Part shown: positions 3,099 through 25,078 of the stretch, piece by piece
Layout: every line of letters starts with the position of its first letter
Numbering within the stretch: position 1 is the stretch's first letter
IMG/VR virus record: IMGVR_UViG_3300001533_001962
Span: 1 to 33,932 of that record
Length of the DNA: 33,932 nucleotides
Source of the DNA: a virus
Strand: one strand, 5' to 3'
Position numbers and translations under genes: made by a program
The notes under the pieces: model-generated
What the model saw: the letters and a program-made list of their open reading frames with translations, nothing else
Database searches by the model: none
Told to the model about the DNA's origin: nothing

Positions 3099-4004
3099 AT
3101 GGATATAATAAGATTGTATAACGATTTCAGTATAGAAATTGCACCAGAAAGTCATAAACATTCAAGACCAGGATGGGTTAATACAGAATGTCCATATCCA
3201 AATTGTAGGGGAAATCCCGGCTTTCATTTAGGTTGGAATGAACAGGAAGAATATTTCTTTTGCTGGCGTTGCGGTTGGCATCCACCAGCCAAAACAATTT
3301 CATTATTACTAAATGTTTCTGAATCCAATGCAATGGATTTAATGAAACAATATGGTGTTAATAGAACGTTTGTAAAAGCCAAACAGAAGGATAAAAAAGA
3401 GTTCAAACCCCCCAGCTTAATGGAGGATTTAACAACTGCTCATAGGAATTACCTAAATAGAAGGCATTTTGACAGCCATAAACTTGAAAAGTTGTATAAT
3501 ATAAAAGGAACCGGTCCGGTTAGCCTGTTAGATAAAATAAATTACAGGCACAGGATTATAATACCTTATTACTGGAATGGTCAAATAGTTTCATTTGACA
3601 GCCGGGATATTACAGGGAGAGCAAATAATAAGTACATGGCCTGTCCGGAGGACAGAGAAATAATACCAAGAAAATCAATAATATATGGGTTGCAGGAATA
3701 TTGGGAAGACGTTGGTATTTGTGTTGAAGGTCCTACTGATGTATGGCGTCTTGGAAAACATGCGTTTGCAGTAAGTGGTATTCAATACACTTATGCTCAA
3801 GTGAAATTAATTTCACAAATATTTAAACGTGTGTGGGTTGTATTTGACCCTGAACCACAGGCACAAAGACAGGCAAATAAATTGGTAGCAGAACTTAGGT
3901 TTCGGGGTGTGGAAGCAAATAATATTATTCTTGATGCTGGAAAAGACCCAGGAAGCCTTACACAAAAAGAAGCAGATAATTTAGTTAGTAAACTTTTAAA
4001 TTAA
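3099..4004 (+). CDS. DNA primase, CHC2 zinc finger plus TOPRIM
   Basis: 301 residues, shorter than cellular DnaG because no helicase-interaction domain is visible. The zinc-binding head is C31-x4-C36 ... C55-x2-C58 (ECPYPNCRG, FFCWRCGW), which recognises template DNA in this family. The TOPRIM domain carries the catalytic glutamate E210 in GICVEGPTDVWR and an acidic pair D250-P-E252 in VVFDPEPQ, where DxD is usual. It would make RNA primers for lagging-strand synthesis with the DnaB-like helicase encoded at 7123-8661. The ATG immediately follows the previous stop. Confidence 0.9.
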   Translation: MDIIRLYNDFSIEIAPESHKHSRPGWVNTECPYPNCRGNPGFHLGWNEQEEYFFCWRCGWHPPAKTISLLLNVSESNAMDLMKQYGVNRTFVKAKQKDKKEFKPPSLMEDLTTAHRNYLNRRHFDSHKLEKLYNIKGTGPVSLLDKINYRHRIIIPYYWNGQIVSFDSRDITGRANNKYMACPEDREIIPRKSIIYGLQEYWEDVGICVEGPTDVWRLGKHAFAVSGIQYTYAQVKLISQIFKRVWVVFDPEPQAQRQANKLVAELRFRGVEANNIILDAGKDPGSLTQKEADNLVSKLLN

Positions 4005-4250: not shown

Positions 4251-4711
4251 GTAAAATTCATTCAACCGAAGAAAAGGAAATAGACCTAAACAGAAAATAT
4301 TACAAGTCTGGACACCCTAATGGTAAACCACACGGTTTATGGTATGATATTAATGGTGAATGGAAACATTGGTGTGAAGATGAAGAATTTGAAGGTATTT
4401 ATAAAAATAATTTTGAATTAGAAATTGATACAACTCAAATTCTAATAATAGAAAATTATTCAGAATTGTTAAGTTTTCACAACAAATATTCTGTTCCGGG
4501 TAAACATTCATATGGTATATTTACTGCAAGGTATAATTCAATAGATTGGCAAGCAGTAAGAAGTAGATATAAAGGTATTGAAATAAGAAATTTTAATAGA
4601 ATAAAATATACTGAAAGTAATGGAGATTACCCTATGTGGTTCTATGGTTGGGACGTTAGTAGTGGTTGTATCTGGGATTTAAGTTGTATAACAAAAGTAA
4701 AAAAATTATGA
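4244..4711 (+). CDS. Hypothetical protein, 155 aa
   Basis: Unrecognised protein rich in Trp, Tyr and Gly. The segment YYKSGHPNGKPHGLWYDINGEW looks like one or two MORN-like strand pairs (xG.xxG.W), and the C-terminus (FYGWDVSSGCIWDLSCI) is aromatic. It sits between two paralogous small genes, overlapping the upstream one by seven bases and the downstream one by four (ATG 4708, stop 4709-4711). That arrangement suggests a local duplication unit. No catalytic motif is seen. Confidence 0.7.
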   Translation: MVSKIHSTEEKEIDLNRKYYKSGHPNGKPHGLWYDINGEWKHWCEDEEFEGIYKNNFELEIDTTQILIIENYSELLSFHNKYSVPGKHSYGIFTARYNSIDWQAVRSRYKGIEIRNFNRIKYTESNGDYPMWFYGWDVSSGCIWDLSCITKVKKL

Positions 4712-4935
4712 AAGTTATTTTGAGTAAAGAATTAGAAAAATTTCTAAAAGACAACAGTCTTTATGAAAGGTTTATTAAAAATGTAGAAAAAAATTCTTTT
4801 AAATCAAGGGATTACTACATTGAACTTAACAGTATTCATAAAGCCTTTATATGGATGCTAACACCAGAAGGTCATTTATTCTGGAGTGCGTTTAATAGTA
4901 TATTTGAACAATTAAAAAAAGAAAAAGAATCATGA
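4708..4935 (+). CDS. Small protein with LSKELxxFL / TPEGxxFW motifs
   Basis: 75 residues, MKVILSKELEKFLKDNS to the end. I chose ATG 4708 because it overlaps the previous stop in the usual ATGA style and because homology with the gene at 4012 begins here; a longer in-frame start at 4666 adds residues with no counterpart. The motifs VILSKELxxFL and SPEG/TPEGxxFW are shared with that paralogue. Function unknown. The stop overlaps the next ATG (4932). Confidence 0.75.
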   Translation: MKVILSKELEKFLKDNSLYERFIKNVEKNSFKSRDYYIELNSIHKAFIWMLTPEGHLFWSAFNSIFEQLKKEKES

Positions 4936-5309
4936 AAGATTTTGTAAGTATTGAAATGAAAGTTTGCCCGATATGTGGAGTAAAACATGACGTGGGTGTA
5001 ATGTTGGACAAGAGATTGAAAAAGAGTATGGAAAGAGAAACAGTTACAGGTTATGAATTTTGTAATGACTGTAAAGAAAAAATTGATGCTGGTTACATAG
5101 CATTAATAGCAATTGACCCTAATAAATCTAATACAGAGGGGGAAACAGTAAAATTTATAGGAGCATATCGGACAGGACAGATAGCATTTGTCAAAAAGAG
5201 AGTCATAAACCAGATGTTTACAATATCTAATAAGCAAATGAAGGATGGTTTTATTTTTGTGGAGCAAGATATAATCACACAACTTGAAAACCTCACAAAA
5301 AATAATTAA
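4932..5309 (+). CDS. Small zinc-ribbon-like protein
   Basis: 125 residues with two CxxC pairs, C12-P-I-C15 and C44-N-D-C47, the spacing of a zinc ribbon. The rest is a soluble mixed domain without known motifs. It is the last gene before the 273-nt structured gap at 5310-5582, so it ends the first + strand operon. Nucleic acid binding or protein binding by the ribbon is likely in general, but no specific job can be assigned. Confidence 0.75.
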   Translation: MKDFVSIEMKVCPICGVKHDVGVMLDKRLKKSMERETVTGYEFCNDCKEKIDAGYIALIAIDPNKSNTEGETVKFIGAYRTGQIAFVKKRVINQMFTISNKQMKDGFIFVEQDIITQLENLTKNN

Positions 5310-5339
5310 TAAATTATTTGAAAAAACTTATCACAAAAA

Positions 5340-5383
5340 CAAATAAAACTAATTAATTTATATAAATTAATTAGTTTTATTTG
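5340..5383. repeat. 44-nt perfect palindrome
   Basis: Bases 5340-5383 equal their own reverse complement over all 44 positions, with no loop (centre at 5361/5362). The composition is almost all A/T. The first mismatch on each side is 5339/5384. It begins 30 nt after the end of the zinc-ribbon gene and its right edge supplies the TTTG of a promoter. It could act as a bidirectional terminator, a cruciform or operator, or part of a replication control region. Confidence 0.9.
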
Positions 5384-5411
5384 CAAATATTAATTATTTA
5401 TTTTAAATTTG
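5380..5411 (+). promoter_or_regulatory. Bacteroidota-type promoter for the replication-start operon
   Basis: TTTG at 5380-5383, a 20-nt spacer, then TAAATTTG at 5404-5411. This matches the Bacteroidota -33/-7 consensus (TTTG, about 19-20 nt, TAnnTTTG). Transcription would start near 5418 and leave a leader of about 165 nt that contains two hairpins before the ATG at 5583. The -33 element lies within the palindrome, so a protein bound to the palindrome would compete with the polymerase. Confidence 0.65.
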
Positions 5412-5443
5412 CTGGTTAAGTTGTTTTATTTAACATAGAATCT

Positions 5444-5473
5444 ATTCATTTTTATGTGCTGATGAAAATGAAT
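5444..5473 (+). repeat. Leader hairpin, 12-bp arms
   Basis: Arms 5444-5455 (ATTCATTTTTAT) and 5462-5473 (ATGAAAATGAAT) pair at 11 of 12 positions around the loop GTGCTG. It lies in the leader between the predicted promoter and the replisome organiser gene. Its role is unknown; it could affect RNA stability or translation, or belong to the control region. Confidence 0.55.
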
Positions 5474-5507
5474 CCTATTCGTTTCGATTGTTTAAGTTTG
5501 ACATAGC

Positions 5508-5560
5508 AAAGTAAAGAGAGGAGTAGAGGCAGCACACTCGAAACTCTTTTTACTTTTTTT
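5508..5560 (+). terminator. Terminator-like hairpin before the replisome organiser gene
   Basis: Left arm 5508-5518 (AAAGTAAAGAG) pairs with 5544-5548 (CTCTT) plus 5551-5556 (TACTTT), with a two-base TT bulge, and is followed by a run of T to 5560. This has the shape of an intrinsic terminator or attenuator. It would lie in the leader of the gene at 5583 and could limit read-through. The loop is long (25 nt), so confidence is moderate. Confidence 0.4.
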
Positions 5561-5582
5561 ATCTGTATTAATTCAAAAAAAT

Positions 5583-6443
5583 ATGTACGGTGATATTAGA
5601 ACTCAGATAATTTCCACCTTATCCAAAGATTCCTTTTGGATGATAAACAAAAAATTAACATTGATACTTGGGATTGAAACAGCTTTACTCACAAGTGAGC
5701 TGATTTCAAAAGATTTTTATTATTCCGAAAAAAATGAGGAATATAATGGTTGGTTTTATCATACCAATAAAAGAATCGAAGAAAATACAACTCTCACAAG
5801 ACACAAACAAGAACGCTGTATTAGTATCTTAAAAGATTTCAAATTAATTTCAACCAAACGAAAAGGCAACCCTGCGAAGCGATTTTTTAAAATTCACTAT
5901 AATAATTATGAAACCCTACTAAGAACAGGTGTTCCCCAGATAGTAAAAAAACGGCAACAAGAGTGTAAAGAATTTACAGACAAGAGTGTAAAGAATTTAC
6001 ACTCTCATATTATTATAAATAATAATATAAATAATAACAAAGGTAATAATAACATAGTGGCACAAAAAATTGTGCCACGAAAAAATGACAAGAATAAATG
6101 TTATTTACCATTAGCTAAAAATTTGGGTGAAATAATAACTACCAAAAAGAATATTAAAATTAATAGCCAAAAATTGAACAGTTGGGTGAATTCTATTCGA
6201 TTGCTGGTTGAAACCGATGGTGTTCAATTAAGGCGTGTAAAAAAAGCATTACGTTGGTACAGGTTCCATTCCGAAGATGAATATGTACCTGTTATTGAAA
6301 GTGGTAAAACTCTACGTGAAAAGTTTATTAGGCTTGAAAATGCTATTGAGCGTAGTAAAAATATAATAACTACCAAAAATGTTAATAAAACAGGGTTCGT
6401 AGGTAAAAACAAACTGAACTATAAAAAACCAGAAGTTAAATGA
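5583..6443 (+). CDS. Replisome organiser / replication initiator, winged-helix and DnaD-like
   Basis: 286 residues. The N-terminal 1-115 region (NGWFYHTNKRIEENTTLTRHKQERCISILKDFKLISTKRKG) is a winged-helix domain of the kind found in phage replisome organisers. Residues 125-165 are a low-complexity Asn/Ile/Lys linker. The C-terminal part (LNSWVNSIRLLV, VKKALRWYRFHSED, GKTLREKFIRLENAIE) has the W...LR.KF..L pattern of DnaD-like or helicase-loader-binding domains. It would bind the origin and recruit the loader encoded next (ATGA overlap at 6440). The linker DNA holds iteron-like repeats, an arrangement like lambda O. The start is the first ATG after the leader. Confidence 0.8.
   Translation: MYGDIRTQIISTLSKDSFWMINKKLTLILGIETALLTSELISKDFYYSEKNEEYNGWFYHTNKRIEENTTLTRHKQERCISILKDFKLISTKRKGNPAKRFFKIHYNNYETLLRTGVPQIVKKRQQECKEFTDKSVKNLHSHIIINNNINNNKGNNNIVAQKIVPRKNDKNKCYLPLAKNLGEIITTKKNIKINSQKLNSWVNSIRLLVETDGVQLRRVKKALRWYRFHSEDEYVPVIESGKTLREKFIRLENAIERSKNIITTKNVNKTGFVGKNKLNYKKPEVK
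5957..6078. other. Candidate replication origin inside the initiator gene
   Basis: Two 22-bp identical direct repeats at 5957-5978 and 5980-6001 have a 23-bp period, about two helical turns. Each contains the dyad TGTAAA-GAA-TTTACA. In the second copy the dyad extends to GAGTGTAAA/TTTACACTC (5984-6004). They are followed by an almost pure A/T tract (6005-6056) and a 9-bp hairpin GTGGCACAA-AAAA-TTGTGCCAC (6057-6078). Iterons beside an AT-rich unwinding tract in the linker of an initiator gene is the lambda-type origin plan. The elements are seen; origin function is inferred. Confidence 0.6.
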
Positions 6444-6988
6444 GAACAGTAGAAAGATGGGACAAAAAAATTAAACCAAACATAATTAAAGAAGTATTTA
6501 CCCCAAGAATTGCACATGATTTAGAAACCCTTAATATTGGTGAATATGATGGTGATGTTGTAAACACTTTTATATTTGGTGAAGTTGAAACCGGAAAAAC
6601 AATAATGGCCGCCCAAATGATGTTAAAGTTTAAAAAAGATGACTACGTAAACAATACAGGAAAAGTTGCAGTATTTGAAAACTTTTCTGAATTACTCGTT
6701 CAAATACGTTCAGCTTATAATAGTCATGTTGTTACTGAGGATACTGTCTTAGCAAGATATATGTTTTGTGATTTGTTGGTGCTTGACGACTTTTTTAGCA
6801 TACGTCCTACCGACTGGGTTTTAGAAATTGTTTACAGATTAATAAACTACCGATATGAAAATTTAAAAACCACGATAATAACAAGTAATAATAGTTTGGA
6901 AGAGATTGAGGAAAAAATAGGGGACCAGAGAATAACCTCAAGAATAAATAGAATGTGTAATTTGGTTAAAAAGGTAAAAACATTTTAG
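6440..6988 (+). CDS. DnaC-like AAA+ helicase loader
   Basis: 182 residues, a compact AAA+ ATPase. Walker A is G47-EVET-GKT54 (GxxxxGKT, with acidic residues where DnaC has small ones), Walker B is LLVLDDFF ending near residue 119, and TTIITSNNS is a sensor-1-like strand. The arginine-containing end QRITSRINRMC fits the DnaC/IstB group. It would load the DnaB-like ring helicase (7123-8661) at DNA bound by the upstream organiser. The gene overlaps the organiser by four bases. Confidence 0.88.
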   Translation: MRTVERWDKKIKPNIIKEVFTPRIAHDLETLNIGEYDGDVVNTFIFGEVETGKTIMAAQMMLKFKKDDYVNNTGKVAVFENFSELLVQIRSAYNSHVVTEDTVLARYMFCDLLVLDDFFSIRPTDWVLEIVYRLINYRYENLKTTIITSNNSLEEIEEKIGDQRITSRINRMCNLVKKVKTF

Positions 6989-7122: not shown

Positions 7123-8661
7123 ATGATTGAGCGTAAAATTGTAATAGGATTAATTACAAGTACAGAATACCTTAAAAGGATTCAAAGTAGCTTTCAATTT
7201 GATTATATTGAAAGCCCTACTGCTAAGATGATTGCAAGATGGTGTTGGGAGTATTTTAATAAATATAAGAAAGCTCCCATGCGAAATATTGAAAATATTT
7301 ACATTAAGAAAATCAGGCAGGGGACTATTAATAAAGATTTGGCAGAAGAAATTGAGAGTGAAATTTTACCCAGACTGAGTAATGAGTATGAAAAGGATGA
7401 GCAGGATATAAAAACTCTTATTGATGATACTAATGAATATTTTGTTGAAAGACAAATTACATTACATTTAGAAGATTTAAGAGTCTCATTAGATAAGAAA
7501 AGAATAGAAGAAGCAGAAAAGCAAGTTAATGATTTTAAAATTGTAAAACAATATGAAGATGATTCGTTAGACCTGAGCGACCCTAAGACTTTAGATAAAA
7601 TTGATATTGCATTTAAAGAAAAAGGGGAATGTTTAATTTATTTTCCAGGACCTTTGGGTGATTTTATGAATGATGAATTGGTACGTGGTGCTTTTGTCAG
7701 TTTTATGGGACCGGAAAAACGTGGTAAAACATATTGGTTAATGGAACTTATGATGCGTGGATACAGGCAGGGCAGAAAAGTTGCATTTTTTGAGGCTGGG
7801 GATATGACTGAAAGTTCATTATTAGTAAGAGGGTGTAGTTACCTTGCAAAGAAACCAACAAAAGAAAAATATTGTGGAAAAATACTTTTACCTGTACAGG
7901 ATTGTTTAAGAAATCAATGTGATATCTGTAATAAACGTATTAGGGAATGTAACTTTGGTGTATTTTCTGATAATGAAACTAAGATACGTGAAACCATAAC
8001 TAAGGATATGATAATTGATGCAATGGATGATTATCCTGATTATAAACCATGTTGGAATTGTTTGGAATGGCAGAAAAAACATATTGGTTCAGTATGGTTT
8101 AAAGAAATTGAAGTAAAAGAAGTGCTTACAGTAGGAGAAGCTAAGAAATTAATAAAGAAACATTTTATTGACAAGAAAAGGAAAATAAAAATAAGTACTC
8201 ACATAAATGGAACTTTAACTGTTGGTAAAATAAGAGAAATATTGGATAAATGGGAACGTGAAGAAGATTTTGTACCTGATATAATACTAATTGATTATGC
8301 TGATATATTAGAACCTGAAATCAAGGGGGACACAAGACAACAAGAAAACCATAAATGGAAACGATTACGTGCGCTTTCACAAGAAACGAACGCATTAGTA
8401 ATAGCACCAACACAAACGGACAGTAAAAGTTATAGTAAGGATTTAATTGACATGGAGAATTTTAGTGAAGATAAAAGAAAGTTTGGTCATGTTACTGCAA
8501 TGTATGGTATGAATCAAGATGTTAAGGGTCGGGAAAAACAATTAGGTGTAATGCGATATAATAGGATTGTTCTGCGTGAGAGTGATTTTCATTACACACA
8601 ACAAGTTTATGTATTGCAAAAACCGGAAATAGGTAGGCCATTTTTAGGAAGTTTCTATTAA
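7123..8661 (+). CDS. DnaB-like replicative helicase with a Cys-rich insertion
   Basis: 512 residues, RecA-fold ring helicase. Residues 1-150 form a helical N-terminal region. Walker A is GPEKRGKT at 196-203, followed by the H1a-like GRKVAFFEAGDMTESSL. Walker B is DIILIDYADILEPE near 389, then VIAPTQTDSKSY, typical of DnaB motif 3. Between about 250 and 315 there is an insertion with eight cysteines (CGK..DC..QCDIC..REC, then CWNC) that looks like one or two zinc-binding modules and is absent from ordinary DnaB. The 134-nt gap upstream shows no promoter I can call. ATG 7123 is the first in frame. Confidence 0.85.
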   Translation: MIERKIVIGLITSTEYLKRIQSSFQFDYIESPTAKMIARWCWEYFNKYKKAPMRNIENIYIKKIRQGTINKDLAEEIESEILPRLSNEYEKDEQDIKTLIDDTNEYFVERQITLHLEDLRVSLDKKRIEEAEKQVNDFKIVKQYEDDSLDLSDPKTLDKIDIAFKEKGECLIYFPGPLGDFMNDELVRGAFVSFMGPEKRGKTYWLMELMMRGYRQGRKVAFFEAGDMTESSLLVRGCSYLAKKPTKEKYCGKILLPVQDCLRNQCDICNKRIRECNFGVFSDNETKIRETITKDMIIDAMDDYPDYKPCWNCLEWQKKHIGSVWFKEIEVKEVLTVGEAKKLIKKHFIDKKRKIKISTHINGTLTVGKIREILDKWEREEDFVPDIILIDYADILEPEIKGDTRQQENHKWKRLRALSQETNALVIAPTQTDSKSYSKDLIDMENFSEDKRKFGHVTAMYGMNQDVKGREKQLGVMRYNRIVLRESDFHYTQQVYVLQKPEIGRPFLGSFY

Positions 8662-11266: not shown

Positions 11267-11596
11267 ATGAGTGAAACAAAAGAGAGAACAAGGGGTAAAA
11301 AGAAAAAATTAAATAAAAGATTACTCCCGGGAGATTTTACTAAATATATAAAGTATGATTCCTTAGATGAAACAGAAAAAGACGTAGTAAAACCAAAAGG
11401 TTTTTTTAATATCCCAACGGATATGAAAGGAGTACAAATACCAGATAGAGATTTCTTGGTTTTTTACTTTGATGACCATAAGGGTTATAAAGAAGTTTTG
11501 GAATACTTTGAAATAGAGAAAAACAAATCTTTAAGTCATCCAAAACTTGATTCTGAAAAATTAATTAAATTAGTCAAAAAAATGAAAAAATTATGA
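11267..11596 (+). CDS. Hypothetical protein, 109 aa
   Basis: Basic N-terminus (KERTRGKKKKLNKRLL), then a mixed domain with the Phe/Asp-rich segment RDFLVFYFDDHKGY and a Lys-rich end. No family is recognised. The gene lies two bases after the clamp gene and overlaps the radical SAM gene by four bases, so it is cotranscribed with replication genes. DNA binding is possible from charge only. Confidence 0.7.
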   Translation: MSETKERTRGKKKKLNKRLLPGDFTKYIKYDSLDETEKDVVKPKGFFNIPTDMKGVQIPDRDFLVFYFDDHKGYKEVLEYFEIEKNKSLSHPKLDSEKLIKLVKKMKKL

Positions 11597-13068
11597 TAGA
11601 CCCTATTTGTAAAGCCTGTGGAATATGTGAAAGGCAAGGTTTAAAACCAGGAACTCTATGTGCTGGTCTTGCTAAGGAAATGCGAATAAAATATGAGTAC
11701 CCAAAAGAATTCCCAAAAACGTATAATGGGTTAAGGTTCACAGCAGATGCTATGGATTGTTCATTACCAATAGCAATAGATAGTCATAGTGGATGTGCTT
11801 TTAACTGTTTATATTGCTTTAGCAATAACCTACAAAGAGCACCAGACAGGAATCAAGCCACATTACAACGCATCATAAAGGAAGGTAGTTTTTACAGCGA
11901 ATGGAATATACACAAATTAGAAAGATTTTTAGCAAGAGATGCTAATGATAAACTAAGCCGTTCAATGTACAAAGTTCTTGATGCTGGAGTACCTGTACAA
12001 TTAGGTGCGCTTGGGGACCCATTTGATGATTTAGAGCTTCAAAGTGGATGGGCTAAAAAAGCAATTCCACTATTCATAAAATATAAAGTACCTGTAAGAA
12101 TTGGAACTAAAGGTGGAGCTGTTTTGAACAGACCTGAATATTTAAAACTATTTGAAAAGAATCCTGACCAATTTTGGTTTGCATTTTCAATAATATCAAA
12201 TAGTGATACATTAATAAAGCAAGTTGACATAAATGCTCCAACAACTACTGAAAGATTACAAGCTATGAAGTCGTTGACTGATATTGGGTGTAATGCAAGT
12301 ATAAGGATGCGTCCATTCCTTCCTGGAATTACTGATGCTTATCCTGGAGAACCGGAAGCTTGGAAAAAATTAATATATCGAGCAAAAGAATCTGGAGCAA
12401 GAGCAATGAGTTTTGAATATATATTTTTACAATCAGTTTTGACACCAAGACAAAAAGAAATGTATAGACTCATGTTTAAAGCTATGAGAAATCCTAAATT
12501 TGGAGAAGAATGGAATACTACATCTAAACAATCTGAAACTTGTAGAAGGTCAACTCGTGATATGAAGTACGAAATGACTAAAAAAGTTAAAGATTACGTT
12601 CATGAATTAGACATGACATTTGGTATAAGCGACCCACATTTTAAAGAATGGAATGATACCGGTAGCTGTTGTGGTTTACCTGATTCCGGTCATGAATGGT
12701 TTAGCAAATGGAGTAGGCGACAAATGACGGAAGTAATAGTACAAGCAAGGAAAGCATTTGAAAAAGGGGAAGAAAGGTTATTCAGTTATAATGATTGGCG
12801 TCCAGAATGGGCTCATGAAACATCAATGAACGCTATGGTAAGTGCTGGTAATTGGCATAGTCATAGGCTCAAAATTAATAAAACATTTGGTGACCACATG
12901 AGAGAAAAGTGGAATAATCCAAAACATCCAAGAGGTCCATACCAATATTTTTCATCTTCATTATTTCCAGTAGGAATAGATAAAAATACAGGTGATTTAG
13001 TTTATAAATACAGAGATTGGCACAAAGGGGATACTACTAATAATATAATAGAAGAAAACAGTGATTGA
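11593..13068 (+). CDS. Radical SAM protein, spore photoproduct lyase-like (SplB/COG1533 group)
   Basis: 491 residues. The [4Fe-4S]-SAM motif is C68-AFN-C72-LY-C75, preceded by SHSG as in SplB-like enzymes. QLGALGDPFDDLE and VRIGTKGG follow as TIM-barrel strands. An extra Cys cluster at the N-terminus (C6, C9, C12, C23) and a GSCCGLP motif after the barrel may hold a second cluster or supply a hydrogen donor. Spore photoproduct lyases repair UV-damaged thymine dimers by radical chemistry. The neighbours are clamp, UDG and polymerase, so repair or modification of phage DNA is the likely role; the substrate is unknown. The next gene's GTG lies inside its 3' end. Confidence 0.85.
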   Translation: MIDPICKACGICERQGLKPGTLCAGLAKEMRIKYEYPKEFPKTYNGLRFTADAMDCSLPIAIDSHSGCAFNCLYCFSNNLQRAPDRNQATLQRIIKEGSFYSEWNIHKLERFLARDANDKLSRSMYKVLDAGVPVQLGALGDPFDDLELQSGWAKKAIPLFIKYKVPVRIGTKGGAVLNRPEYLKLFEKNPDQFWFAFSIISNSDTLIKQVDINAPTTTERLQAMKSLTDIGCNASIRMRPFLPGITDAYPGEPEAWKKLIYRAKESGARAMSFEYIFLQSVLTPRQKEMYRLMFKAMRNPKFGEEWNTTSKQSETCRRSTRDMKYEMTKKVKDYVHELDMTFGISDPHFKEWNDTGSCCGLPDSGHEWFSKWSRRQMTEVIVQARKAFEKGEERLFSYNDWRPEWAHETSMNAMVSAGNWHSHRLKINKTFGDHMREKWNNPKHPRGPYQYFSSSLFPVGIDKNTGDLVYKYRDWHKGDTTNNIIEENSD

Positions 13069-14290
13069 AGGATTTTTTAATGTCAATGAGTTAAAATCAA
13101 AATACAGACCTGACGGTAAAAATTATACTTGTCAATCTTGTGGTTTGATAGGTAGGGTGCTTTCCCCAAAAATGGGACCTCACGGTGATTTTAAAATGGG
13201 AATTTTAAATATTGGTGAGGCTCCTGGAGAAGTGGAAGACAGGCGTGGTATGCAATGGCAGGGGAAAACAGGTCGATACTTAAAGGAAACATATAGGGAA
13301 TTAGGTATTGACCTGTTTGAAGACTGCTTGAATATTAATGCTGTTAATTGTAGGCCAACAAGTAAAACAGGCAACAGACCACCTACAAATTATGAAATTG
13401 ATTGTTGTCGTAAAAGTGTTATTCAATTAATTGAAAAATATAAACCAAAAGTTGTAGTTCTTTTTGGGGGTGCTGCTTTATATTCTATAATTGGACACCG
13501 TTGGAAAAAGAAACTTGATGGAATTAACAAGTGGCGTGGATTTACTATACCAGACCAAGATTTTAAAACATGGATTTGTCCTGTATTTCACCCAAGTTAT
13601 GTTTTACGTAATGATACAAATAGTGCTGTTGAAACCATATGGAAACAGGATTTACAAAGAGCTATTAGTATGGTTGATGTAGAATTACCTAAATATATAG
13701 AACCAAAAATACATTATATTGAAGATTTATCGGTATTAAAAACTATACACCCACCACAAAGGATTTCTTTTGACTATGAAACAACAGGGTTAAAACCACA
13801 TGGAAAAGGTCATAGAATAATTTGTGCATCAGTAGCAATAAGTGAAAATGAAGGGTACTCTTTTATGATGCCAAAAAAGAAAAGTGAACGAAAGCCATTT
13901 ATAGATTTATTACTTAATGAAGGTATCTATAAAATAGCACACAATATGAAATTTGAAGAAAGTTGGAGCCTTGTACGTTTAGGTACACGTGTAAAAGGCT
14001 GGGAATGGGATAGTATGGTTGCGGCACATTTATTGGATAACCGTACAGGTATTACAAGTCTTAAATTTCAAGTGTTTGTTAATTTTGGAATACCAGACTA
14101 TGATAGTGAAGTTAGCAAATATTTAATGGCAAAAGACCCAAAGAATGGAAACTCTATGAATACAATTAAAGATTTAATAAGCACTAAATCCGGTGAAAGG
14201 AAACTATTAAAATACTGTGGTTTAGATAGTATTTATGAATACCGGTTGGCTGAAAAACAACAATGTACAGAATGTTTTTTACCTTTTTAA
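13061..14290 (+). CDS. Uracil-DNA glycosylase (family 4-like) fused to a 3'-5' exonuclease
   Basis: 409 residues with a GTG start at 13061; no ATG in frame precedes the conserved part, and the GTG overlaps the previous stop. Residues 20-210 are UDG-like: Fe-S cysteines C24, C27, C97 and C115/116, motif GEAPGEVED (52-60), NCRPTSKTGNRPP, and HPS near the end. Residues 230-405 are a PolA-type proofreading domain: D238/E240 in SFDYETTG, AHNMKFEE, WDSMVAAHLLD, GLDSIYEY (DEDD-Y). The polymerase domain is the next gene, three bases on. SPO1-type phage polymerases carry UDG, exo and pol in one chain; here the chain is split. Confidence 0.88.
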   Translation: MIEGFFNVNELKSKYRPDGKNYTCQSCGLIGRVLSPKMGPHGDFKMGILNIGEAPGEVEDRRGMQWQGKTGRYLKETYRELGIDLFEDCLNINAVNCRPTSKTGNRPPTNYEIDCCRKSVIQLIEKYKPKVVVLFGGAALYSIIGHRWKKKLDGINKWRGFTIPDQDFKTWICPVFHPSYVLRNDTNSAVETIWKQDLQRAISMVDVELPKYIEPKIHYIEDLSVLKTIHPPQRISFDYETTGLKPHGKGHRIICASVAISENEGYSFMMPKKKSERKPFIDLLLNEGIYKIAHNMKFEESWSLVRLGTRVKGWEWDSMVAAHLLDNRTGITSLKFQVFVNFGIPDYDSEVSKYLMAKDPKNGNSMNTIKDLISTKSGERKLLKYCGLDSIYEYRLAEKQQCTECFLPF

Positions 14291-14293
14291 ATT

Positions 14294-15679
14294 ATGAATA
14301 AAGATACAAGAGAAGCATATAAATTATTTCATGATGGTACTATTGCTTTATCATACGCTGAACAACATGGTTTGCGTGTAGATACAGAATACATACGTAA
14401 ACAAAACGGAGAAATTTCGGGCAAGATAAAACAACTGGAAAATGAATTTAAAGCAACCAAATTTTTTAAAGATTGGGAAAGTTCTACAAAAAAGGCTATA
14501 AATATTTATAGTGGAGCTCAATTAGGTACATTCTTATATAGGGTTAAGAAAATTGAACCTGTTAAAACAACTGCAAAAGGTACAGCTTCAACAGATGAAG
14601 AAGCATTAAACCAATTAAATATACCAGAGTTACAAATTTTATTGAGAATAAAAAAATTAAAAGCTATTCGTGATACTTTTTTAGCTTCAATATATCGTGA
14701 ACAAGTTGATGGACATTTAAGGCCGTTTTTTAATTTGCATTTGGTAAGGACTTACAGAAGTAGTTCTGATAAACCTAACTTTCAAAACGTTCCTAAGCGA
14801 GATAAAGAATCAATGCAAATAGTAAGAAAATCACTTTACCCACGGAAAGGACACCAACTGTTAGAGCTTGATTATAAACAGCTTGAGGTAAGAATTGCAG
14901 CTTGTTATAATGAAGATGAAAAATTAATGTATGATATTGAACATGGTGATATGCACGGAGATATGGCAAAAGAATTATTTGTAATTAACAATTTTGATGG
15001 TAATGAGCCAACACATTCTGTATTACGTGCCGCCGCAAAGAATGGATTTGTATTCCCACAATTTTATGGTGATTACTACAAAAACTGTTCTGAATATTTA
15101 ATTGGAACTTGGTGCAAATTGAGTACTAAAACCAAATGGAAAAAGGGGGAAGGTATTGAATTTGAAAATGGTAATATTTCAGACCATTTAATTGAACAAG
15201 GGTTTAGACGCATGAATGATTTTACTGAACACGTAAGAAATATAGAAGCTGACTTTTGGGGTAAACGTTACCGAAAATATGACAGATGGAAACAACAATG
15301 GTGGCGGCAATATTTGAAAGACGGTTTTTTTGAAAGTAAAACAGGGTTTACCTTCAAAGGTGTTTACACCTTTAATGATGTTACTAATTATCCAATACAA
15401 GGTTCGGCTTTTCATGTGCTTTTGTGGAGTTTAATTGAAGGTATTACGGCTCAAAGAAGGGGTGGGTGGCGTTCAAGAATATTAGGGCAAATACATGATG
15501 CTATTGTAATTGATGTTTATCCACCAGAATTAGACAAGGTTATACATATTATGAAATGTATTATGGAAAATGATGTACGACAACATTGGCCGTGGATTAT
15601 TACACCATTAGTAATAGATGCTGAATTGTGTCCGGTTGATGGAAGCTGGGCTGAAAAGGAAAAATATAAAATTGATTAG
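14294..15679 (+). CDS. DNA polymerase, family A, polymerase domain
   Basis: 461 residues, with no exonuclease domain of its own. Motif A is LDYKQLEVR with catalytic D193; motif B is R245-AAA-K249 ... QFYGD; motif C is QIHDAIVID with H401-D402, where many family A enzymes have HDE. Motif B is longer than the usual RxxxKxxxFGxxYG by about one residue, and a GFVFPQFYGDYY form of this kind occurs, as I recall, in some phage polymerases. It should work with the UDG/exonuclease protein encoded just upstream as a two-subunit replicase. ATG 14294 follows the upstream stop after three bases. Confidence 0.9.
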   Translation: MNKDTREAYKLFHDGTIALSYAEQHGLRVDTEYIRKQNGEISGKIKQLENEFKATKFFKDWESSTKKAINIYSGAQLGTFLYRVKKIEPVKTTAKGTASTDEEALNQLNIPELQILLRIKKLKAIRDTFLASIYREQVDGHLRPFFNLHLVRTYRSSSDKPNFQNVPKRDKESMQIVRKSLYPRKGHQLLELDYKQLEVRIAACYNEDEKLMYDIEHGDMHGDMAKELFVINNFDGNEPTHSVLRAAAKNGFVFPQFYGDYYKNCSEYLIGTWCKLSTKTKWKKGEGIEFENGNISDHLIEQGFRRMNDFTEHVRNIEADFWGKRYRKYDRWKQQWWRQYLKDGFFESKTGFTFKGVYTFNDVTNYPIQGSAFHVLLWSLIEGITAQRRGGWRSRILGQIHDAIVIDVYPPELDKVIHIMKCIMENDVRQHWPWIITPLVIDAELCPVDGSWAEKEKYKID

Positions 15680-15981: not shown

Positions 15982-16192
15982 TGAATTAAAGGAATTAAAA
16001 AGTGTTTTAAGGACACGAAAAAAGTATGTTAATGAACATTATGTTGGGCGGGATAAAGAAATTGCACTATTTGAAGTTGATGTTTTGTTCAAAATTGTAA
16101 ACAAGGCATTTGATACAGAAGATTATAAGGAAAGTATAAGTGATTGTAACACAACGGTTAAGAAAAGAATAAGAGGAACAAAAAATAAATAA
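15968..16192 (+). CDS. Hypothetical helical protein, 74 aa
   Basis: A charged, helical protein (NELKELKSVLRTRKKYVNEHYVGRDKEIALFEVDVLFKIV). Two adjacent ATG codons, 15968 and 15971, can start it; both overlap the end of the previous gene. It closes the polymerase operon, followed by the promoter at 16193-16251. No function is assigned. Confidence 0.6.
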   Translation: MMVSNELKELKSVLRTRKKYVNEHYVGRDKEIALFEVDVLFKIVNKAFDTEDYKESISDCNTTVKKRIRGTKNK

Positions 16193-16251
16193 ATTTTATA
16201 AAAAAATTAATTAAAAATATTTGTTTTTGTTATTTATTTTTTGTAATATTG
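16193..16251 (+). promoter_or_regulatory. Promoter of the clamp loader operon
   Basis: TTTG at 16220-16223, a 20-nt spacer and TAATATTG at 16244-16251. The -7 box is identical to that at 9526-9533, and the A-rich block at 16193-16208 (ATTTTATAAAAAAATT) is nearly identical to that at 9477. Transcription would start near 16258, about 28 nt before ATG 16286. The pair suggests coordinated control of the two operons. Confidence 0.6.
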
Positions 16252-24869: not shown

Positions 24870-25078
24870 AAAAAAGATTTGGTATTTATGTCATCAACGA
24901 AAAAGAATCGGGATTTACGTTGGAGCAAATGGGTATTGAAGATGAAAAAAATATTGCCGAAAAAAGGGCAAAAGGGATTTCAAAAAATTTAGTTACAAAT
25001 GAGTGTGTAACCGTATTACCAATATTTTTTAGAGTAACCGTATTACCAATATTTTTTAGAGATGAAGATTACGATTAA
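24866..25078 (+). CDS. Hypothetical protein with a 9-residue tandem duplication
   Basis: 70 residues. Near the C-terminus VTVLPIFFR is present twice in a row, encoded by a perfect 27-bp tandem repeat (25007-25060). The rest (FGIYVINEKESGFTLEQMGIEDEKN) has no known domain. An in-frame duplication without any base difference implies a recent event. It overlaps the next gene by 17 bases. Confidence 0.65.
   Translation: MKKRFGIYVINEKESGFTLEQMGIEDEKNIAEKRAKGISKNLVTNECVTVLPIFFRVTVLPIFFRDEDYD
25007..25060 (+). repeat. Perfect 27-bp tandem repeat, two copies
   Basis: Copies 25007-25033 and 25034-25060 are identical and in frame in the gene at 24866-25078, duplicating nine codons. Slippage or unequal recombination is the simplest origin; an assembly artefact is also possible. 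Confidence 0.9.

Follow-up and report, generated by a model that had tools for sequence, protein, structure and literature searches.

The window, by which we mean the whole virus contig of 33,932 nucleotides that was analysed (IMG/VR record IMGVR_UViG_3300001533_001962), carries a replication block in which a primase gene is located upstream of a putative initiator gene, genes for a loader and a helicase follow, and a beta clamp gene is found downstream. The phage encodes its own DnaB-like helicase, primase, clamp and polymerase. The initiator matched the profiles phrog_9773 (E 3.3e-13), whose name 'replication initiation O-like' is a PHROG family label only, and phrog_2514 ('DnaD-like', 4e-11). 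Its nearest annotated counterparts were ORF35 of Lactobacillus phage LL-Ku and gp22 of Flavobacterium phage Fpv5, with 35–41% identity in the N-terminal domain. An initial annotation, made from the DNA alone, had read the gene order as initiator-like, DnaC-like and DnaB-like, and the Pfam and PHROG profile matches supported this. Two further observations were made among the replication genes. A radical SAM protein (PF04055) resembling in sequence the spore photoproduct lyase type is encoded at 11593–13068, and a family A DNA polymerase is apparently split at 13061–15679, with UDG and 3'-5' exonuclease domains in one ORF and the polymerase domain in the next.

Table 1. Features of the replication block and of the candidate origin, in coordinates of the window.
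Feature	Position	Strand	Description
DnaG-like primase	3099..4004	+	phrog_47 1.3e-34; same block conserved in relatives
Initiator (replisome organiser) gene, 286 aa	5583..6443	+	phrog_9773, phrog_2514, AF2 domains
Winged-helix domain, residues 23-115	5649..5927	+	pLDDT about 95 (AlphaFold)
Iteron 1	5957..5978	+	22 bp, ACAAGAGTGTAAAGAATTTACA, dyad TGTAAA-GAA-TTTACA
Disordered linker, residues 126-162	5958..6068	+	pLDDT below 50 (AlphaFold)
Iteron 2	5980..6001	+	identical to iteron 1
Extended dyad around iteron 2	5983..6005	.	10+3+10, AGAGTGTAAA-GAA-TTTACACTCT
Pure A/T tract, proposed unwinding element	6007..6037	.	31-bp A/T run; weakest duplex by nearest-neighbour energy
Palindrome/hairpin	6057..6078	.	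GTGGCACAA-AAAA-TTGTGCCAC, 9-bp arms, 5 G-C pairs, 3' of tract
Helical C-terminal domain, residues 167-258	6081..6356	+	AlphaFold; C-terminal type A in mosaic set
DnaC/IstB-like AAA+ helicase loader	6440..6988	+	PF01695 1.4e-8; phrog_50 1.5e-34
DnaB-like replicative helicase	7123..8661	+	phrog_19 2.7e-28; PF03796 3e-5

An AlphaFold (AF2) model of the initiator, run together with 22 relatives, predicted two folded domains joined by a disordered linker. This agreed with the earlier proposal that the repeats lie in a linker between a winged-helix and a C-terminal domain: the origin-like DNA (codons 125–165) coincides with the predicted linker, and because the segment encodes only this linker the coding cost of an embedded origin is low. 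The best structural matches in the PDB included the plasmid Rep N-terminal domains 5kbj, 4pql and 4pt7 (Z 9–10). The RepA-type winged helix was ranked first by Foldseek (E 0.013), with a VIA Z of 10.0 over 103 residues; other winged helices scored nearly as high, thus the Rep fold matches support the class of the domain and not descent. The RepA_N Pfam domain (PF06970) gave no match in the initiator at E up to 1.

Inside the initiator gene two identical 22-bp copies of ACAAGAGTGTAAAGAATTTACA were found with a period of 23 bp, each containing the dyad TGTAAA-GAA-TTTACA, which confirmed the coordinates and sequence first reported for them. The longer dyad at iteron 2 extends beyond that first description. 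The iterons occupy nt 374–419 of the gene, approx. 370 bp inside and far from the gene's promoter, and no third copy was detected in the whole record at up to 4 mismatches. The pair scored 39.3, whereas 500 synonymous-codon shuffles of the initiator gene, which kept protein and codon usage, averaged 17.8 and never exceeded 26.3. The copies are translated in two frames, as QECKEFTD and KSVKNLHS. Since a period of 23 bp is not divisible by 3 and the copies stand in different frames, repetition in the protein cannot explain them, and we concluded that the constraint on the iterons acts on the DNA. Among the short-range direct repeats of the record only one scored higher than this pair. This rival, a tandem repeat at 25007–25061, was rejected, being a plain in-frame duplication without a dyad; it is an exact 27-bp tandem duplication in the final part of a small ORF, encoding VTVLPIFFR twice.

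The 17-mer GTGTAAAGAATTTACAC occurred at chance-level frequency in 84,980 genomes and its matches were not in initiator genes, so that this motif does not represent a common mobile or host element. As a separate observation, the dyad AGAGTGTAAAGAATTTACACTTTATTTTT was seen again at 1091–1115 of L002, another phage, and at about 7859–7883 of L089, a Bacteroidia MAG. At both places it is near genes and followed by T-rich sequence, where it is probably a terminator or an operator.

The iterons are adjoined by an A/T tract that is pure over 31 bp, A/T-rich to about 6055 and weak as a duplex to about 6057. By nearest-neighbour energy no 30-bp stretch of the record is weaker than 6007–6037 and no 50-bp stretch weaker than 6007–6057, and at the 80-bp scale the site is the sixth weakest. 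This weakness was equalled in 157 of 1000 synonymous shuffles; it is due for the most part to the amino acid composition, and codon choice adds nothing. The tract and the 9-bp GC-containing hairpin that follows it at 6057–6078 were found as initially annotated. Elsewhere in the record, the longest pure A/T run (43 bp) lies between genes at 16180–16222, and a perfect 44-bp palindrome with 22-bp arms and no spacer is located at 5340–5383, intergenic before the initiator gene and among the weakest duplexes.

A direct search of IMG/VR with the initiator or loader protein found no relative. Relatives were therefore gathered by helicase searches, giving 87 loci of which 71 distinct ones were kept, with helicases 40–58% identical. 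Most of these contained the block primase, initiator, loader and helicase. Persistence of the repeats in relatives had been set beforehand as a check, and the repeats did persist: the best repeat exceeded z 4 (its excess over the synonymous-shuffle mean in sd) in 24/63 genes at the initiator position, compared with 13/354 other genes (Fisher 2e-13). By the repeat score roughly one in two initiator genes of the relatives was without a strong repeat. Among the 23 HMM-recognised initiators with z>2.5, the repeat midpoint was found at nt 360–575 of the gene in 22; in 17, the 40-bp stretch with the weakest duplex in the gene lay between 2 nt upstream and 75 nt downstream of the 3' end of the repeats. 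The best repeat was direct and not inverted in 22/23 relatives with z>2.5. The repeat sequences themselves were unrelated among phages, as shown by GAGAGGGCAAGACCTCTC (L048), AAGGACTTGTCCTT (L032), TCGTCGGAAAACACGACGA (L037), AGTTCCGTGAAAATCACGGAACT (L009) and CCACATGTGG (L005). What persists among the relatives is thus the layout and not the repeat sequence. The repeat script found no comparable iterons in the linkers of the LL-Ku and Fpv5 initiators. Five relatives from the cluster of the window (L032, L037, L060, L061 and L073) hold 15-bp in-frame repeats, ATATAAGGATAnnAA, in the A/T-rich part 3' of their iterons, which differ; they could serve as single-strand or loading signals, or simply reflect repetition of a YKDN peptide. 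In L004 two ORFs with GIY-YIG-like starts (2000–2887 and 4397–5290) flank the helicase gene and, judged from these starts, could possibly encode homing endonucleases.

When the initiators were clustered by their N-terminal halves and the repeat period was measured per cluster, the period was mostly 23–25 bp in the cluster of the window and 15/16 bp or multiples in another; a third cluster had the common repeat AAATGCTTTAAGTnCTAATA. Each cluster spans more than one C-terminal type. Period class against cluster gave a 2x2 table of 14:1 vs 3:12 (p 1e-4), from automatic calls at a score of at least 20 and with clusters and periods defined after looking at the data. The period therefore goes with the kind of N-terminal DNA-binding domain, irrespective of the C-terminal type, as would be the case if the repeats were recognised by the N-terminal domain. 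Unlike the 23-bp class, the 15-bp class repeats in frame, so that repetition at the protein level is possible there and ruled out in the 23-bp class. The repeat AAATGCTTTAAGTnCTAATA is shared by the initiators of L004, L021, L029, L038, L018 and L003, which have one N-terminal type and two C-terminal types, and this suggests that a DNA-binding domain is transferred along with its origin.

A palindrome with arms of at least 8 was found 20–150 nt past the repeats in 8/52 initiators and in 16/750 control windows (p 6e-5), a post hoc count in a window likewise defined after looking at the data, and one that concerns a minority of the relatives. Counterparts to the palindrome at 6057–6078 were present in lambda O and in 7 relatives. 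A broader picture, which we hold tentatively and at slightly less than even odds, is that domains are swapped at the initiator linker in a large group of uncultured phages that carry the primase - initiator - DnaC - DnaB block. N-terminal DNA-binding domains of several unrelated kinds, each with its own iteron type and period (23–25, 15–16 or 24–27 bp), would stand beside different C-terminal domains, and the order of iterons, A/T tract and palindrome would have arisen or been kept repeatedly without detectable lambda ancestry. If this is true, the palindrome would be a real third element of the origin.

The initial annotation had also likened the segment to the lambda origin. As a control lambda O was passed through the same scripts, which found its annotated iterons, with a spacing of 20, then 24 and 23, and a 28-bp palindrome, GTCAGAGAATTC-TGGC-GAATCCTCTGAC, with 11-of-12-bp arms right after the A/T tract. 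The likeness held for the layout: in lambda as here, iterons with internal dyads lie 20–24 bp apart in the middle of the initiator gene (nt 348–433 of O, here 374–419), followed directly 3' by an A/T tract and then a palindrome (PMC7466680, PMC5043065), and a helicase-loading gene is found directly downstream of the initiator. No sign of descent from lambda was seen: the comparison of the initiator with a single O sequence gave an hhalign probability of only 0.8%, so that homology was not detected, and the downstream gene is not a lambda P-type loader but an IstB/DnaC-like AAA+ protein. Lambda further differs in having four iterons of 18–19 bp, compared with two here, and this phage differs in encoding its own replication enzymes. 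According to the part of PMC7466680 that cites Dodson 1986, two iterons and the A/T tract form the minimal unwinding unit of the lambda origin, thus two copies would in principle be enough.

Two other systems were compared. In SPP1, oriL lies in gene 38 (of the gp38/gp39/gp40 set), with direct repeats and an A/T unwinding element inside the initiator gene (PMC6316719). As in our phage, loader and DnaB-type helicase genes follow the initiator, a likeness drawn from the published description and not from sequence (PMC6316719). SPP1 has a second origin, oriR, whereas no second SPP1-like origin was seen in this record, which is without iteron copies elsewhere. In plasmid pSK41 the N-terminal winged helix of Rep binds Rep boxes located centrally in its own gene, and the ori-encoded central domain acts as a linker (PMC5703833); the iterons of RepA_N plasmids are semi-palindromic (PMC7145576). 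The pSK41 Rep (RepA_N) is the best solved fold match of our initiator model (4pql/4pt7/5kbj) and has its origin inside rep. It differs in belonging to a plasmid, in having four Rep boxes and in a C-terminal domain that binds host DnaG, whereas this phage has its own loader and helicase. Three traits of this class of embedded iteron origins were found here: tandem dyad repeats in the initiator gene, an unstable A/T-rich element adjoining them and, in the AlphaFold model, an N-terminal DNA-binding domain, an origin-encoded linker and a C-terminal domain. By this comparison the candidate origin would work like lambda ori, SPP1 oriL and the pSK41 ori, being lambda-like in plan but not demonstrably lambdoid by descent.

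We propose that 5957–6078 is the candidate replication origin of the phage, located inside its own initiator gene and bound by its own initiator, and we give this reading a probability of about 0.88. Initiator binding, melting, helicase loading and origin firing would proceed by a mechanism taken from lambda (PMC5043065, PMC7466680). The N-terminal winged-helix domain, probably as a dimer, would bind the dyad of each 23-bp-spaced iteron, and the bound initiator would wrap or bend the DNA. The strain would then melt the adjoining A/T tract at 6007–6057, the weakest duplex of the genome, on supercoiled DNA as in lambda. Subsequently, the C-terminal domain and the DnaC-like loader would put the DnaB-like helicase on the exposed strand, after which the primase and polymerase of the phage would act. 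For the 3' hairpin we can only guess at a role, such as holding on to the opened strand or delimiting the bubble. Against the origin reading stand the presence of only two iterons, the many relatives whose initiator gene is without a strong repeat, the largely amino acid-determined weakness of the tract, the restriction of the palindrome to a minority of relatives, the post hoc definition of clusters, periods and palindrome windows, and the absence of a GC-skew switch. A skew change had been named as a check by the initial annotation and none was seen at 5957–6078; skew in this record follows gene direction and is uninformative for locating an origin.

The initiator could also bind the repeats as an autoregulatory, copy-control or incompatibility site, with the strands opened at another place such as 5310–5582, an A/T-rich intergenic region. 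That region contains the perfect 22+22 bp palindrome, and its segment 5350–5400 ranks second among the weakest 50-bp stretches of the record. However, iterons are absent from it, and the weakest duplex adjoins the iterons in this phage as well as in 17/23 relatives. The position deep in the gene, far from the promoter, and the examples of lambda, SPP1 oriL and pSK41 also argue against this arrangement, which we consider improbable.

Even less probable is a function of the dyads at the RNA level, where they would form hairpins within the operon that serve as attenuator or terminator or affect mRNA stability. The RNA of 5950–6090 does fold strongly (z -7.8), 5983–6005 and the reverse strand of 6057–6078 score terminator-like, and the one exact match in IMG/VR to a 19-bp half of the dyad lies between genes of an unrelated phage, before a T-rich run. 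But an attenuator needs no two exact tandem copies, many relatives are without a hairpin, the best repeats in relatives with z>2.5 are nearly always direct, and the period follows the DNA-binding domain of the protein. The least probable explanation, to which we give hardly any weight, is that a linker free of constraint acquired the tandem duplication by chance or neutrally and owes its A/T richness to Asn, Lys and Ile codons. Disordered linkers tolerate duplications and the weakness of the tract is set largely by amino acid content, yet numerous diverged relatives have repeats at this position of the gene, with a preferred period, in unrelated sequences and far more often than other genes. 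The dyad within each copy and the exact identity despite different reading frames also speak against chance.

The candidate at 5957–6078 gives a phage that is known from sequence alone an origin that is precisely placed and can be tested. As embedded iteron origins are already known as a class from lambda, SPP1 oriL and pSK41, the interest lies in the generality of the layout in uncultured phages, where a simple rule, repeats and the weakest duplex in the initiator linker, predicts origins in many of them. If the pairing of domain and repeat holds, it would offer many natural initiator–iteron pairs for studying DNA recognition and the exchange of origins between phages.
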